Shown piece after piece: positions 13,621 to 42,893 of a DNA stretch of 64,000 nt. A program made the position numbers and the translations under genes. The stretch is from NCBI GenBank assembly GCA_019359435.1, contig JAHHHI010000072.1, positions 1-64,000 on the forward strand, read 5' to 3'. Origin of the DNA: Kaiparowitsia implicata GSE-PSE-MK54-09C (lineage in GTDB: Bacteria; Cyanobacteriota; Cyanobacteriia; Elainellales; Elainellaceae). How positions within the stretch are numbered: the stretch's first letter is position 1; each line of letters opens with the position of its first letter. A model generated the notes under the pieces. The model searched no databases. It had not been told where the DNA came from and saw nothing but the letters and a program-made list of their open reading frames with translations.

Positions 13621-16600
13621 TTAGTACTCGCCGACAAAGTCTGGATGAACCCAGAGGAACTCCCGACGCTTGTTTTGCACTTTCACTAAGCCGCCAAAGC
13701 CAGGGTCTTTTTCTTTTAGCAGGGCGTGAAGCTCTCGCAGCATGGAACCTTGGGCACGAATGGCTTCGCCCTGGTCAAAGTCTGCTGAGTCTCGTTGGGT
13801 GAACCAATCTACGGCGATGTTGCTGCCTTTAATGCCAAGCTCAAGGCTTTTTTGCCCAAGATCTAGTTCTTGTTTGATGCCTGCGTAGGTGGCATCGTCG
13901 AGCATATACTGGGTTGCAGAAGCCGCCACGGGTAACACCAGACTCAAGGTGCCGGTGACAAGTTTGAAGTAGGGAATAGCTTTGGTAAACCACTCTCGGT
14001 TTAGTTCTAGCTCATAAACCCCTTGTTTGCTGCCAGGCGGGTTGAGCACGGGGAGCGGTTTGCGCGAATGCTCGCACCAGAGCGTGAGCTGAAACTTTTC
14101 GCTGATCCATTTGGGGCGATCGAAGAATCCTGGATCAACTGGCTTGAAGCTAAACAGACGGGGGCCGTCTTTGGCTTCATCGGTGAGCATTTGCATTAGG
14201 TAGGCAAATTGCTGATCAATCTGGCTCAGGATAGTTTGTTGATCTTTTGATAACGCCTGATGACGGTGCTGATTCCGATGATCAAGCGTCACCAGATCCC
14301 GACGAATTACCTTGAGTTCATCTTTTACAACAGCTTGAAATTGGTCAAGGCCAATGGCTTGGGAGGGGGGAGGATTGGTCGCAGCGTTGTTGAGCAGTTG
14401 ATCGATGTTTTGCCATTCATCACAACCAGAAATCGGACAGGGAAATTCTGGGCGATTTTTCTTTTTGCTCTCAATCAGCTTCTGCACTTCAAAGAGACCG
14501 TGCCCAGGTGTTTCCATGCCACAGGGAGCGATGCATGGCACCATGATGTTGCAGTTCAGTCCTTCCCAGAAGCTCTCCACCAGCCATTTCACTTCTTCAG
14601 TAAGATAAGCGAGAAATCGTTCAGGGTAGGCAGCTCGGACGGTAATTTTGACATCGGTGCCAACGTGTTCTAGCAATGCCCGGCCATTGTAGTCGTTGTC
14701 AAGCATCAAGCCCCGCTGCCAATGGACGCTGTTATTGTAGTTGTTCCTGCCTAGGGAATATTTATGCAAACGCACAATCAACTGGTAAAACAAGCCTTCG
14801 GCTGGAGCCAGTTGCCCGCGATCGTCTACGATGCGACAGACTTGCACCTGTTGGCGGTCTCCATCTTGTGGTTGCTCACCCCAATTGGGCAATTGCTTTG
14901 GCCGATTATCAGGCACTAGTTGGGCAACTAGGCTAGCGGCGCTTTCTTCCTTAGAAGCCGGATCGAGCACAACTTTATAGGAGAGATCAAACCGCTCCAT
15001 CAATCGCAGGAATATTGGATGGAGGTCTGGGGGATAGCCGTCTTCACCTGCGAACGGGGGATGGCTCCACACTTGGCTAAGATGGGCAAACTTGACCAGT
15101 CCGTTACGGCGACGGGTCATTTCATCATCCAATACAAAGCTGATTGCTTTCGCTAACCAATCGGGCTTGAGGATGACAATGTCTTGAAGAATAGGATCGT
15201 AATGGTAGTGCGTTAACAGCCCAAGTCTATGAGAAATTTGGATGAATAATTCTGCCTGCTGGTGATCAATATTTTGGTCTGCACATAGGCGCAGCACCTC
15301 GCTATAGGGTAAATAAGGTTGGTTGCGTTCTTGCAACTTTTCCCTTGTCTCTTGCCATTTTTTCGGAACGGTTCGACCCATGCCAGGTAAGTAAGCGGTG
15401 ACATTCGCAATTGCTGCTCGCAGTTCTGCAATTCCCTTACAAGCCTTCTGTTCCGAATTCGGTTTGCTATCGACGTAAAAGAAACCAACAACAGTATCGT
15501 TGCCAAACAGGTCAGTCAATTCTTGACGGTCAATATCAGGCTGTCGTTGTCCCGGGCCATCGTGGGTTGCCACAACCAAAATTTTGGCATCGGGTTCGCG
15601 ATGCTTAATCAGAGTAATCCATTCTTTGACAAACCCCTGCTGTGGCCCCTCCCGGGGCTTCCAGATGACCAGATAGACCGCAGATTCACTAAAAAATAAC
15701 TGGTGGGTCGGTCGATAAACCCGTTGGCCACCAAAATCCCAACCATTGAGTGTAATTTCTGTGCCGCTATCAGAATCGGTCACAACCACAGGCTTAATTT
15801 CGATGCCGTGAGTTGTGGGGCGATCCTCTATCCAGTTATCTCCGCGCAAGGCTCCCAACAAGCAACTCTTCCCTACTTCCCCCTCGCCCACTAAAATCAG
15901 CTTTGCCTCATTGAGAGGTACCTCTCCCTCTGCTTTTGCCCGTAGGTATTGCATGACGGCTGCCGTATCTTGTGCGTAAGCAGCAGCAAGATCAGGGTTC
16001 AATGGATTATCGCTAAGGTCAAGCACTTGCAACTGAGTGAGTGCGGCGATCGCAACTGGCAGTTCCGTCAATTGATTCCTTCTGAGGTCAAGCGATTGCA
16101 ACTGAGTAAATGCTGCGATCGATTCCGGTAGTTCCGTCAATCGATTAAAGCTGAGGCCAAGTGTTTTTAACTGGGTGAGTGCGGCGATCGATTCCGGTAG
16201 TTCTATTAATTGATTATTGTCGAGGTCAAGCGATTGCAACTGGGTGAGTGCGGCAATAGCCCTTGGCAATTCCGTCAATTGATTCCTGCTGAGTCTAAGC
16301 CCTTGTAACTGGGTGAGTGCGGCGATCGATTCCGGTAGTTCCGTCAATTGATTATCGCTGAGGTCAAGCGATTGCAACTGGGTGAGTGCAGCAATAGCCC
16401 TTGGCAATTCCGTCAATTGATTCCTGCTGAGTCTAAGCCCTTGTAACTGGGTGAGTGTGGCGATTGCCTCCGGCAGTTTCGTCAATCGATTAAAGCTGAG
16501 GCCAAGTGTTTTTAACTGGGTGAGTGCAGCAATAGCCTTCGGCAGTTCCGTTAATTGATTATTGTCGAGGTCAAGCCTTTTCAACTGGGTGAGTGCAGCA

Positions 16601-16785
16601 ACAGCCTTCGGCAGTTCCGCCAATTGATTACTTCTAAGATAAAACGATTGCAATTGGGTGAGAGTGGCGATCGCATCCGGCACTTCCGTCAACGCCATGC
16701 CGATAAGATCTAGGCTTGTCGCTCCTTTTAGACAGGCTGCTTCAATACGCTGTTCTGCGTTCCAGTAGGCTACGTCTTGCGCCAT
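13621..16785 (-). CDS. Roco GTPase: LRR-Roc-COR protein
   Basis: 1054 residues. A short N-terminal helix is followed by about ten leucine-rich repeats of 23 residues (about 43-272; consensus TQLQSLDLSxNQLTELPESI). Next is a Roc GTPase domain: P-loop GEGEVGKS at 300-307, switch-II WDFGGQ, and ATHDG in the place of the NKxD motif, as in Roc domains. A COR dimerisation region follows from about 480 to 760. The last 300 residues contain a long helix and a C-terminal domain of unknown role. Roco proteins are GTP-controlled signalling scaffolds; bacterial targets are mostly unknown. No kinase domain is present. The LRR codons are nearly uniform and carry CGATCG-type sites at the same place in several units, so the repeats have been homogenised. 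Confidence 0.93.
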   Translation of the reverse strand: MAQDVAYWNAEQRIEAACLKGATSLDLIGMALTEVPDAIATLTQLQSFYLRSNQLAELPKAVAALTQLKRLDLDNNQLTELPKAIAALTQLKTLGLSFNRLTKLPEAIATLTQLQGLRLSRNQLTELPRAIAALTQLQSLDLSDNQLTELPESIAALTQLQGLRLSRNQLTELPRAIAALTQLQSLDLDNNQLIELPESIAALTQLKTLGLSFNRLTELPESIAAFTQLQSLDLRRNQLTELPVAIAALTQLQVLDLSDNPLNPDLAAAYAQDTAAVMQYLRAKAEGEVPLNEAKLILVGEGEVGKSCLLGALRGDNWIEDRPTTHGIEIKPVVVTDSDSGTEITLNGWDFGGQRVYRPTHQLFFSESAVYLVIWKPREGPQQGFVKEWITLIKHREPDAKILVVATHDGPGQRQPDIDRQELTDLFGNDTVVGFFYVDSKPNSEQKACKGIAELRAAIANVTAYLPGMGRTVPKKWQETREKLQERNQPYLPYSEVLRLCADQNIDHQQAELFIQISHRLGLLTHYHYDPILQDIVILKPDWLAKAISFVLDDEMTRRRNGLVKFAHLSQVWSHPPFAGEDGYPPDLHPIFLRLMERFDLSYKVVLDPASKEESAASLVAQLVPDNRPKQLPNWGEQPQDGDRQQVQVCRIVDDRGQLAPAEGLFYQLIVRLHKYSLGRNNYNNSVHWQRGLMLDNDYNGRALLEHVGTDVKITVRAAYPERFLAYLTEEVKWLVESFWEGLNCNIMVPCIAPCGMETPGHGLFEVQKLIESKKKNRPEFPCPISGCDEWQNIDQLLNNAATNPPPSQAIGLDQFQAVVKDELKVIRRDLVTLDHRNQHRHQALSKDQQTILSQIDQQFAYLMQMLTDEAKDGPRLFSFKPVDPGFFDRPKWISEKFQLTLWCEHSRKPLPVLNPPGSKQGVYELELNREWFTKAIPYFKLVTGTLSLVLPVAASATQYMLDDATYAGIKQELDLGQKSLELGIKGSNIAVDWFTQRDSADFDQGEAIRAQGSMLRELHALLKEKDPGFGGLVKVQNKRREFLWVHPDFVGEY
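16030..16700 (-). repeat. LRR-coding tandem repeat, 69-bp period
   Basis: About ten 69-bp units encode 23-residue LRRs of the Roco protein. Some units that are not neighbours are almost the same at nucleotide level, for example around 16260-16310 and 16400-16450, which fits duplication or gene conversion. Confidence 0.85.
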
Positions 16786-39886: not shown

Positions 39887-41566
39887 TCAGAAAATATTGA
39901 GCAATGCCTGAAACGCTTCGTCATCTCGAATAGAGTCAAAATCTGAATCTGTCTGCGCCATCTCGCGATAGGCCGACTTTAGTTCGATAGTCCTTTTTAA
40001 GGTTTCAACAGCAGCTTCCACATTACCTTGCAAGCCATAGCAACAAGCCTTGTTATACCAAGTACTTACGTAATTAGGTTTGATGGCAAGAGCATGGTCA
40101 TAAACGGCGATCGCCTCCTCATAGCGGCCTAAGTTACGCAGCGCAACTCCTTTGTTGTTGAGCGATCCGTGATCGTCCGGTTTAACAGCAAGAGCTTGAT
40201 CATAGGCGGCGATCGCCTCCTCATAGCGGCCTAAGTTACGCAGCGCATTTCCTTTGTTGTAGAGCGCTTCGTGATAGTCAGGTTTGAGGGCAAGGGCTTG
40301 GTCATAGGCGGCGATCGCCTCCTCATGGCAACTTAAGTCATCCAGCGCATTTCCTTTATTGTTAAGCGCTTCGTAGCCGTCAGGTTTGAGGCTTAGGGCT
40401 TGGTCATAGGCGGCGATCGCCTCCTCATAACGGCCTAAGTTCCCCAGCGCATTTCCTTTGTTATTGAGCGCTTCGTATGTGTCAGGTTTGAGGGCAAGGG
40501 CTTGGTCATAGGCGGCGATCGCCTCCTCATAGCGACCTAATTCATCCAACGCAAACCCTTTGCCGGAGAGCGCGTTGTGATAGTCGGGTTTGATAGCAAG
40601 GGCTTGATCATAGGCATCGATCGCCTCTTCATGGCGGCCTAAGTTCGCCAGCGCAAACCCTTTGCCGGAGAGCGCGTTGTGATAGTCGGGTTTGATGGCA
40701 AGGGCTTGGTCATAGGCAGCAATCGCCTCCTCATACCGGCCTAAGTCCGCTAGCGCCACTCCTTTGTTGTAGAGCGCGTTGTGATAGTCGGGTTTGATGG
40801 CAAGGGCTTGGTCATAGGCAGCGATCGCCTCCTCATAATCTTGATTCGCAGCAAAGACCCTGCCTTGTTCGCGTAGCAAATCCACTTTGCGGTCTAGCGT
40901 TTGATTTGGGTCATCAATCAAGTTTCGCAACTCGGCTAACTTTTGAATTCGCTCAGCCGGGGTAAGTTTAAGATATTTGTCATAGTCGCCATGCGCTGAC
41001 AACGAACGCTGTTGTAGTTCAGCCTGATCGACAGGCAACTCAAAAATGCCCGATCGCCAATCAAAAAAGTCTGGAGCGCGATGAATTAGATAGTTTTTAG
41101 CAAATAGCGGAATGAGAAAAACAAAGCAAGTGGTGAAGCTATCACGAAAGTTTTCGCGCTGTTGGTTTAGGTTCACCATCACGGGGGGTACGCCCTTCCA
41201 GCTATAGGAGCGCACCTCTTTCTCCGCCCAGCCTAGATGGCGCTTAGTGTCTTCATAGGCATAGAGCGAGTGTTCTAGCCCCTGAATAAACACCACATCG
41301 AGTGATTTGTGCTCTGCCAAAAAGGCTTTGATTTCTCGATAAATATTGCCGTCTGGGATTGCGTCCGTAAACCTCAGCGTTGCCATGCGCTTTTGCGGCA
41401 GGTCTGTCCTTAGCCGCTCAATGACTCGCTTTCCCTCGGCTGGCGAACATTGCACAAACAGCAGCCCAAAGCCTTGGTTGCGGCGAATGGCCCGTTGCAA
41501 CGCTTCGTACTCTTCCTCCGCATCGGGGGGTGCGGCGTCGTCCCAGAGGTCAAGATTCTGGCTCAT
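39887..41566 (-). CDS. Degenerate P-loop NTPase-like domain fused to TPR array
   Basis: 559 residues. The first 180 look like a P-loop NTPase that has lost its catalytic residues: FGLLFVQCSPAEGKRVIERL has a P-loop-like turn (40-47) with Arg in place of Ser/Thr, and LDVVFIQGLEHSL (89-100) is where a Walker B would be, without the acidic pair. From about residue 238, eight full 34-residue TPRs and one partial follow (YEEAIAAYDQALAIKPDYHN), almost the same in sequence. The gene starts 17 nt inside the 3' end of the active AAA ATPase gene, so the two products are probably made together. Such arrangements fit NTP-dependent conflict or signalling systems, with TPRs as sensor or scaffold; that is inference. 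Confidence 0.85.
   Translation of the reverse strand: MSQNLDLWDDAAPPDAEEEYEALQRAIRRNQGFGLLFVQCSPAEGKRVIERLRTDLPQKRMATLRFTDAIPDGNIYREIKAFLAEHKSLDVVFIQGLEHSLYAYEDTKRHLGWAEKEVRSYSWKGVPPVMVNLNQQRENFRDSFTTCFVFLIPLFAKNYLIHRAPDFFDWRSGIFELPVDQAELQQRSLSAHGDYDKYLKLTPAERIQKLAELRNLIDDPNQTLDRKVDLLREQGRVFAANQDYEEAIAAYDQALAIKPDYHNALYNKGVALADLGRYEEAIAAYDQALAIKPDYHNALSGKGFALANLGRHEEAIDAYDQALAIKPDYHNALSGKGFALDELGRYEEAIAAYDQALALKPDTYEALNNKGNALGNLGRYEEAIAAYDQALSLKPDGYEALNNKGNALDDLSCHEEAIAAYDQALALKPDYHEALYNKGNALRNLGRYEEAIAAYDQALAVKPDDHGSLNNKGVALRNLGRYEEAIAVYDHALAIKPNYVSTWYNKACCYGLQGNVEAAVETLKRTIELKSAYREMAQTDSDFDSIRDDEAFQALLNIF
40090..40850 (-). repeat. TPR-coding tandem repeat, 102-bp period with HIP1 in register
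   Basis: Eight units of 102 bp. Most units carry GGCGATCGCCTCCTC, with HIP1 at the codons for AIA of EEAIAAYDQA; a few have GCAATCGCC or CATCGATCGCC instead. Nucleotide identity between units is very high. Confidence 0.9.
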
Positions 41567-42893
41567 GGCGGTCGTGGTGGTTGAGCGCGGTTTTGAACTC
41601 GTCGATGCCTTCGATCAGGGGGTGAACATTGTGCCAGCGCTGGATCTCACCTTGATCATCAGCATAGCGATATTCCAGCACACAGCGGTTAAATAGCAGG
41701 TTGCGATAGTCGTCTTCATTGGGCAGGCTTTTAGTGCGATGCACAACGGCGAGTTTGGCCCAGTCGGTTGCGTCTACCGTGGCGCGGTAAGTATTGCGGG
41801 CGCGGGTGATGGCCTGGCGCACTGCCACGGCTTGAATGGGAAAGGTATCCGTCCAGTCTAGGCTGGTTTGCATGAGCTGCATCACCTCGCGCATGTGGCC
41901 GCCGCTGGCGAGGCAGATCTGGTTTAGGGTGTCTGTCTGGTCAAAAATGGCGGTTTCCAGATCGGCGTTAGGGGCATGGCGTTCCACCCGTTTGCGAATC
42001 AGTTCTTTAACCTTATTGAATCCCGGCTCGTTTAGAGATCCATCGGGATACCGCACCATCACCATCGGCAGCACTTGGCAGTCGCCATAGCTGTCGCGCA
42101 GTTGCGTGGCTCGGTTGGAATAGACCAGGGAAATTGGCACGGTATAGATCACATGGCAATCGAGCTTGCGGAGCTGCCCACTGCGGTCAATAAAAATTTC
42201 GTCGTGGTTTGTTTTGCCGTCGTCGCGAGGGCAGGGCACAATCCGATCCAGGTTATCGGCAATGACGACGAGGTTGCCATGCCCTAGGGTTTGCTTGGCT
42301 TCGACAATAAACTCGTTCAGCGCATCAATCAGTGAAATAGAGTGGGCATCGACCTGTTTGCGAATGGTGTCGCGGGTGCTGGGCACTTGCCGCAGGGTGG
42401 CGGTGAGTTTCGAAAACTGAGAGATTTGGGCATTTATCTCCAGTTTGTCAAATTCCACATCTGAGAGAGCCAAGCCCTTTAGCTCATTCCAGCGCGACTT
42501 GAGCCAGTTGGTGAGCGGGGAAGGATTGGCCTGATCTCGCAGGTCTTCCAGAATGTGGCGGGTGCAGGCCAGCAAGATATCGGTGTATTGGGTGTCGTCT
42601 TCGTCGATATCTTCGTCAGCGGCAAAATAAACGACCTTAAAGCCGTTGGCATTGAGGTGCTGCTGCAGCCGTTTGAGTTCTGTAGATTTGCCCACGCCCC
42701 GATGCCCGGTGTAGAGCTGATAGGTGGGCTGGTTCGACCGCTGGATGCGCCGACCCAGTTCGCGCACGATGTTGTCGTTGCCGCGCACGGCATGGCAATC
42801 CACATAAAACGCATCCCCCGGCTCTAGCGGACGAAAGGGATCGAAGGCGTTGTAGATGTCGGCGATCTGCTGTTCGCTGAGCAGGCGGGGCAT
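41550..42893 (-). CDS. AAA-type ATPase, STAND/Orc-like, paired with TPR protein
   Basis: 447 residues. Walker A GHRGVGKST at 63-71, Walker B LVVIADNLDR at 208-217, and a sensor-like Arg/Thr segment (HVIYTVPISLVYSNRA) around 255-275; the C-terminal third is helical with a winged-helix-like end (RNLLFNRCVLEYRYAD, then WHNVHPLIEG). It is like the AAA_16/Orc1-Cdc6 type ATPases used as switches in signalling and defence. No nuclease, protease or membrane domain is fused. It overlaps the downstream degenerate-NTPase/TPR gene by 17 nt. The AAA fold is sure; the biological role is not. Confidence 0.85.
   Translation of the reverse strand: MPRLLSEQQIADIYNAFDPFRPLEPGDAFYVDCHAVRGNDNIVRELGRRIQRSNQPTYQLYTGHRGVGKSTELKRLQQHLNANGFKVVYFAADEDIDEDDTQYTDILLACTRHILEDLRDQANPSPLTNWLKSRWNELKGLALSDVEFDKLEINAQISQFSKLTATLRQVPSTRDTIRKQVDAHSISLIDALNEFIVEAKQTLGHGNLVVIADNLDRIVPCPRDDGKTNHDEIFIDRSGQLRKLDCHVIYTVPISLVYSNRATQLRDSYGDCQVLPMVMVRYPDGSLNEPGFNKVKELIRKRVERHAPNADLETAIFDQTDTLNQICLASGGHMREVMQLMQTSLDWTDTFPIQAVAVRQAITRARNTYRATVDATDWAKLAVVHRTKSLPNEDDYRNLLFNRCVLEYRYADDQGEIQRWHNVHPLIEGIDEFKTALNHHDRHEPES

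Follow-up and report, generated by a model that had tools for sequence, protein, structure and literature searches.

The gene pair and its predicted products

The stretch of DNA examined here, referred to throughout as the window, comprises positions 1 to 64,000 of contig JAHHHI010000072.1 of the cyanobacterium Kaiparowitsia implicata GSE-PSE-MK54-09C, in which open reading frames were called mechanically. Two neighboring genes on its reverse strand encode a predicted AAA+ ATPase and a partner protein in which an N-terminal domain, denoted ND, precedes an array of tetratricopeptide repeats (TPRs) (Table 1). The end of the ATPase gene and the start of the partner gene overlap by 17 nt. An initial annotation of this DNA, whose reading frames and overlap are confirmed here, had described an active ATPase coupled to a catalytically dead protein with a rapidly changing repeat scaffold, and had likened the arrangement to nucleotide-dependent conflict or signaling systems of multicellular cyanobacteria. 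Here, we report a comparative analysis of the pair, its genomic neighborhoods, its repeat arrays and the output domains found in its relatives.

Table 1. Features of the gene pair, in window coordinates
Feature	Position	Strand	Basis
ATPase gene, active AAA+, 447 aa; predicted ORC/Cdc6-TnsC-STAND type core and C-terminal winged-helix-like region	41550..42893	-	Open reading frame, Pfam AAA_16 (6e-9), AlphaFold2 model, fold matches
Walker A of ATPase, GHRGVGKST, residues 63-71	42681..42707	-	Sequence and conservation
Walker B of ATPase, LVVIADNLDR, residues 208-217	42243..42272	-	Sequence and conservation
Partner gene, 559 aa; putative dead AAA+-fold domain ND and TPR array	39887..41566	-	Open reading frame, conserved adjacency
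ND of partner, residues 1-183; predicted AAA+ alpha/beta core without lid	41018..41566	-	AlphaFold2 model and fold matches
Degenerate P-loop of ND, CSPAEGKR, residues 40-47	41426..41449	-	No Walker A in 133 relatives
Walker B-like strand of ND, VVFIQGLE (residues 91-98), with Glu but without the Asp	41273..41296	-	Sequence and conservation
TPR array of partner, one divergent and eight canonical 34-aa repeats, residues ~225-531	39974..40894	-	Pfam and tandem-repeat detection
102-bp tandem repeat in TPR array	40076-40837

The nucleotide-binding motifs of the upstream protein are intact, as the initial annotation had stated. Seven Walker A residues (G63, H64, G66, G68, K69, S70 and T71) and four in Walker B (D213, L215, D216 and R217) are invariant in 50 relatives, the P-loop is kept at 122 of 124 loci, and arginines R174, R178, R302 and R335 are conserved. 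The Pfam model AAA_16 matches with a score of 37.0 (cut-off 32.6), and the nSTAND and KAP models score under their own cut-offs. Fold matches of the AlphaFold2 model (predicted local distance difference test score, pLDDT, 91.7) include TnsC (Z 15.3), ORC/Cdc6 (Z 14-15), the archaeal STAND ATPase 2fna (Z 14.9), CED-4 (Z 13.4) and plant resistosomes, all in the range of Z 12-15, so that CED-4 and the resistosomes lie within ~3 Z units of the best folds. The motifs and the model together identify the protein as a probable intact ATPase of the ORC/STAND clade of AAA+ proteins.

In the partner protein, the place of the P-loop is occupied by QCSPAEGKRV (residues 39-48), which, as had been noted, lacks the Ser/Thr; no Walker A motif is found at this site in any of 133 relatives. 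The corresponding claim that ND has no acidic Walker B was slightly too strong: the Mg-binding Asp is gone from the strand VVFIQGLEHS, but the Glu at E98 is near-invariant and G96 is invariant in 62 sequences. Two arginines of ND, R137 and R163, are also conserved. The AlphaFold2 model of ND (pLDDT 85.5) has the strand-helix order of AAA+ proteins and matches their folds over residues 13-183; its best match is TnsC (Z 10.9), the matches listed are of AAA+ type, the AAA+ domain of yeast Sir3 among them, and the C-terminal helical lid or bundle is missing from the core. ND is thus predicted, from its fold and its lost motifs, to be a catalytically dead AAA+ core. The possibility that ND is a known unrelated enzyme, raised at the outset, was rejected, as no relevant match came from Pfam run on 62 ND members or from PDB-sequence and PADLOC searches with ND.

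These folds bear on one explanation of the pair, namely, that it is a nucleic acid-binding machine of the ORC/TnsC type in which the dead subunit is the nucleic acid receptor and the TPRs recruit clients. The nearest folds of the ATPase are the DNA-loading TnsC and ORC/Cdc6, the best match of ND is TnsC as well, and nucleic acid sensing has been proposed for inactive STAND proteins (PMC8195603). However, DNA binding does not follow from a common fold, CED-4 and the plant resistosomes lie close behind in the same comparison, and there is no conserved nuclease or transposase among the recurrent neighbors of the pair, so that we regard this explanation as distinctly improbable.

Conservation of the pair across Cyanobacteria

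Of 292 genomes sampled from the phylum, with a weighting to Nostocales, 67 contain relatives of the ATPase (protein P0002) and 45 contain ND. The neighborhood survey that the initial annotation had proposed found the two genes together: with an iterated ND profile, ND lies directly downstream of the ATPase on the same strand at 147 of 160 loci. Five of the 13 loci without a downstream ND are contig ends, and one (L073) has ND upstream. Distant ATPase subfamilies show the same order (32 of 36 loci), and a genome from another class of the phylum carries two ATPase-ND pairs. The genes overlap in 70 of 108 non-redundant close pairs, by exactly 4 nt (ATGA coupling) in 55 of the 108. Pairwise distances among the ATPases and among the NDs are correlated (Pearson 0.84; Mantel 0/999). 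The pairing of a gene for a live ATPase with one for a putatively dead partner is conserved as an operon across the phylum, in more than 100 non-redundant relatives, which is beyond chance.

In a scan over species genomes of bacteria and archaea, 84,980 in all, the 80 best matches, a count that comes with no background rate, were all cyanobacterial; we take their genera to be mostly filamentous. A literature search, with subscription papers largely outside it, found no description of the pair.

Copies in Nostocales adjoin a conserved housekeeping neighborhood of cofG, hflX, gshB and a glutaredoxin gene, named by eye from sequence. A conserved third gene was considered and rejected, these recurrent neighbors being Nostocales synteny. 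No MoxR/vWA cluster is present among the recurrent neighbors, no defense-island context was seen for pairs of the window type, no copies were found in phage records or IMG/VR, and PADLOC matches are weak (PDC-S20, 1e-5).

Several loci depart from the simple two-gene layout. At six of them (L065, L067, L071, L173, L195 and L202), the ATPase is flanked by an upstream ND-TPR gene and a downstream gene for a short ND devoid of TPRs, and a Pseudanabaena partner (L193:8346-11714) has two tandem NDs ahead of its TPRs. On an Acaryochloris plasmid (L232:3795-15142), an ATPase and a 1920-aa ND giant lie between two tyrosine recombinases, beside HicAB; members remote from the window pair can thus be carried on mobile DNA.

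Turnover of the repeat array

Pfam recognizes nine TPR stretches in the window partner, eight of them canonical and in phase. The initial annotation had called these eight nearly identical; the number stands, but the repeats are only similar, their 102-bp units matching at 83% in DNA and ~75% in protein. Across partners, the number of repeats ranges from none to 34. The claim that the scaffold changes fast is well founded: where the ATPases of orthologous pairs are 97-99% identical, the partners carry unequal numbers of repeats (27 versus 7 and 4 versus 7), and in such orthologs repeats of the same index are no more alike than randomly paired ones. The arrays turn over fast, with no repeat-by-repeat orthology left between near-identical pairs.

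This variation is concentrated at seven TPR positions (2, 5, 9, 12, 13, 33 and 34), which form the concave, specificity-determining binding surface (PMC1261162). Within-array variability is 0.53 at these positions and 0.16 elsewhere, with an excess in the same direction in 48 of 48 arrays. The proportions of nonsynonymous (pN) and synonymous (pS) differences at the seven positions are nearly equal over the arrays (0.29 versus 0.32) and in the window array (0.42 versus 0.39), whereas at framework positions pN is about one third of pS (0.08 versus 0.23), which shows clear purifying selection.

Alternatively, the pair might be an ordinary scaffold or chaperone-like ATPase whose TPRs are prone to slippage and evolve neutrally. 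Tandem repeats of 102 bp can indeed expand and contract, and concave positions vary across TPR families in general (PMC1261162); therefore, 12 other arrays were compared as a control. The arrays of this family are more self-similar than these (p 0.001) and show a stronger contrast in variability (2.06 versus 1.42, p 0.005), in a control that is small, drawn from sampled genome stretches and includes some pieces of the same family. Together with the constraint on the framework codons and the near equality of pN and pS at the binding positions, this internal identity makes neutral turnover in an ordinary scaffold a quite doubtful account.

Output domains in relatives

The statement that no effector is fused to the pair holds for the window copy, which has none adjoining either, but not for the family. 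In Okeania SIO3I5, ND and TPRs are fused to a CHAT protease domain (PF12770, 3.8e-54; L215:5293-9198), and in Calothrix NIES-4101 to a HetZ_rel_2 domain (1.3e-110). A profile built in this analysis detects a HetZ_rel_2-type extension in the Fischerella muscicola and G091 partners as well, and the other Nostocales genomes searched have a free-standing copy of it elsewhere. A subfamily at 35% identity carries an ND-TPR-nSTAND1-WD40 fusion, and an orphan ND-TPR protein has a LuxR helix-turn-helix (HTH) domain inside its array (3.6e-16; L072:4967-6865, reverse strand), with no ATPase gene adjoining. The CHAT part of the Okeania protein contains the motifs HFSCH and SACETG, with the expected His and Cys.

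A second layout was found at three loci (L154:1617-4134, L156:5778-8460 and L199:8329-10318), where a short ND ends in a tail resembling a ribbon-helix-helix (RHH) domain; the gene that follows overlaps the ND gene by 8 nt and opens with a matching RHH-like segment, to which TPRs are joined. In all nine comparisons between these segments and the ND tails, none of 1000 shuffles (0/1000) did as well. At two of the three loci, the third gene carries an output: HetZ at L154 (6e-166) and a GAF-SpoIIE phosphatase at L156 (5e-58). Such sharing of an adaptor is the principle described for effector-associated domains (EADs; PMC8195603). A search with the RHH-like adaptor revealed no further ND-RHH operons and matched mainly one short slr0373-like protein per genome (open frames of ~115-150 aa). 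The adaptor resembles the slr0373 family, of which many of the larger genomes of cyanobacteria have a single member.

Members further removed from the window pair have other associations. In two genomes, a diverged ND-TPR gene without an ATPase lies directly upstream of a gene for a 1214-aa dCache-HAMP-PAS hybrid histidine kinase (L097:1810-6993; L098:1978-7234, reverse strand). On a plasmid of Nostoc C057 (L230:4030-9821), genes for a VMAP-M1/VMAP-C protein and MoxR are followed by one that joins a SAV_2336 domain to a remotely related homolog of the ATPase, and next by one for a small membrane protein. GT4 and HEPN modules were not found in the partners scanned with Pfam or inspected; the scan with curated models took in part of the partner set.

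A receptor reading of the pair has two narrower versions, whose probabilities overlap with that of the broader one. The first is an antiphage or conflict system, in which the TPRs sense a product of the invader and, in response, the complex brings about dormancy or death. It draws on the CHAT fusion, on the Nostoc plasmid genes, which recall the published VMAP ternary systems (PMC7159879), on the Acaryochloris plasmid locus and on the hypervariability of the arrays, which is like that of the recognition repeats of fungal NLR proteins (PMC4986451). A conflict role, one of the two functions to which the arrangement had first been likened, is not borne out: the Nostocales copies occupy a housekeeping locus, no copy was found in phage records or IMG/VR, and the outputs are as much regulatory (HetZ-related, LuxR and PP2C) as death-like (CHAT). 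With only weak PADLOC matches and no effector next to the window copy, we judge this version to be unlikely.

The second version, a regulator of development or stress signaling in multicellular cyanobacteria whose usual output would be HetZ-type transcription factors, kinases or PP2C phosphatases, strikes us as slightly less unlikely. The associations with HetZ families, LuxR HTH and SpoIIE/PP2C are independent of each other, the diverged orphan NDs precede a histidine kinase, and the cofG-hflX-gshB locus is retained in Nostocales. However, a conserved regulator of development would not usually have arrays that turn over so fast, the HetZ-family genes of the window genome lie on other contigs, and the one CHAT fusion suggests proteolysis or death.

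Relation to described systems

MalT/LAL-type regulators combine a STAND module, TPRs and a LuxR domain. The present pair is like them in its STAND-like switch and TPR sensor, and a LuxR HTH occurs in one orphan ND protein, but here two polypeptides are involved, the TPR-bearing one is predicted to be dead, and the LuxR HTH lies inside the array.

The pair resembles, by analogy of layout, the published operons of active and inactive STAND proteins (PMC8195603). In the two-gene mobile operon described by Kaur et al. (2021, PMC8195603), an active STAND NTPase is encoded next to an eroded one, with GT4 or HEPN outputs; the genes are likewise adjacent, and the eroded member is fused to variable modules. 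Here, in contrast, variability resides in an array of TPRs, and CHAT, HetZ, LuxR, HEAT or nSTAND1-WD40 occur in a minority. We do not file the pair under that operon, because GT4 and HEPN were unseen and the likeness lies in layout, not in a sequence comparison. The iSTAND and iSTAND2 proteins of MoxR-vWA ternary systems (PMC7159879, PMC8195603) share an inactive AAA+/STAND core, a proposed sensor role, an ATPase partner and abundance in cyanobacteria, but no MoxR or vWA gene adjoins our pair, and its ATPase is ORC/STAND-like rather than a MoxR protein. A resemblance to the logic of active and inactive STAND proteins in multicellular prokaryotes, which these papers describe, is among the parts of the original proposal that are supported.

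Two further comparisons concern the individual domains. The BrxB/BrxF iSTAND proteins of BREX (PMC12839542) are similar to ND in that they have a P-loop fold without Walker motifs or the C-terminal helical bundle; however, PglZ, BrxC or other BREX genes were not seen near the pair, and the beta-sheet cap insert was not identified in ND. Fungal NLR proteins with highly conserved (HiC) TPR, WD or ANK repeats (PMC4986451) show the same variation in array length, signs of concerted evolution and concave-face variation, but join NOD and repeats in one polypeptide, whereas here the ATPase and the repeats are on two subunits. The window array, ~75% identical, also falls under the HiC threshold of 85% over >=100 aa.

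The pair is bordered in the window by uvrA and a gene for a pentapeptide-repeat protein. At 13621-16785 on the reverse strand, the window also encodes a protein of 1054 aa in which leucine-rich repeats precede a Ras-like GTPase whose P-loop (GEGEVGKS) is intact; by eye, it is of ROCO type, a further candidate for a protein combining a switch with repeats.

A proposed two-subunit receptor

We consider it probable, with reservations, that the two genes encode a two-subunit, ATP-gated receptor or switch, in which the dead AAA+ subunit bears a variable recognition array. Because its genes travel together and the partners of relatives carry outputs, the pair has the appearance of a receptor in two parts more than of an ordinary enzyme. 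The active ATPase would be the switch, and the dead core, ND, would pair with or cap it. The TPR solenoid at the C-terminus of the partner would recognize a variable ligand or protein, which might come from an invader, from a neighboring cell or from an internal client, and binding would be relayed through ND to the nucleotide state of the ATPase. The assembled complex would then drive an output that differs among family members in a modular way, being either fused to the TPR protein (CHAT protease, HetZ-related domain, LuxR HTH or nSTAND1-WD40) or docked on a third protein through the shared RHH-like adaptor (HetZ or PP2C phosphatase). For the window copy, the output would be supplied in trans by another protein.

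Several points weigh against this receptor reading, in addition to the general variability of concave TPR positions and the small control set. The profiles of ND and the ATPase are not joined by hhalign (Prob 0.2), and the AAA+ identity of ND therefore rests on its predicted fold and lost motifs. The correlation between ATPase and ND distances is expected for any co-inherited neighbors, and outputs are fused or appended at only ~7 of 118 close loci.

More tentatively, the pair could represent an NLR-like family of two-subunit cyanobacterial receptors, in which an active ORC/STAND ATPase has an obligate dead AAA+ partner with a hypervariable TPR array and outputs are swapped among HetZ, PP2C, LuxR and CHAT, the signals recognized in filaments being self, non-self or those of a partner; we hold this possible, although we would not yet call it probable. 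If so, an NLR-like receptor would have been divided in cyanobacteria between two subunits, a live ATPase and a dead one that bears the repeats; these would have stayed together as an operon throughout the phylum and been connected to regulatory (HetZ) as well as protease (CHAT) outputs. The pair would then offer a tractable bacterial case of AAA+ signaling through a dead subunit and, outside eukaryotes, of a recognition surface that diversifies rapidly.

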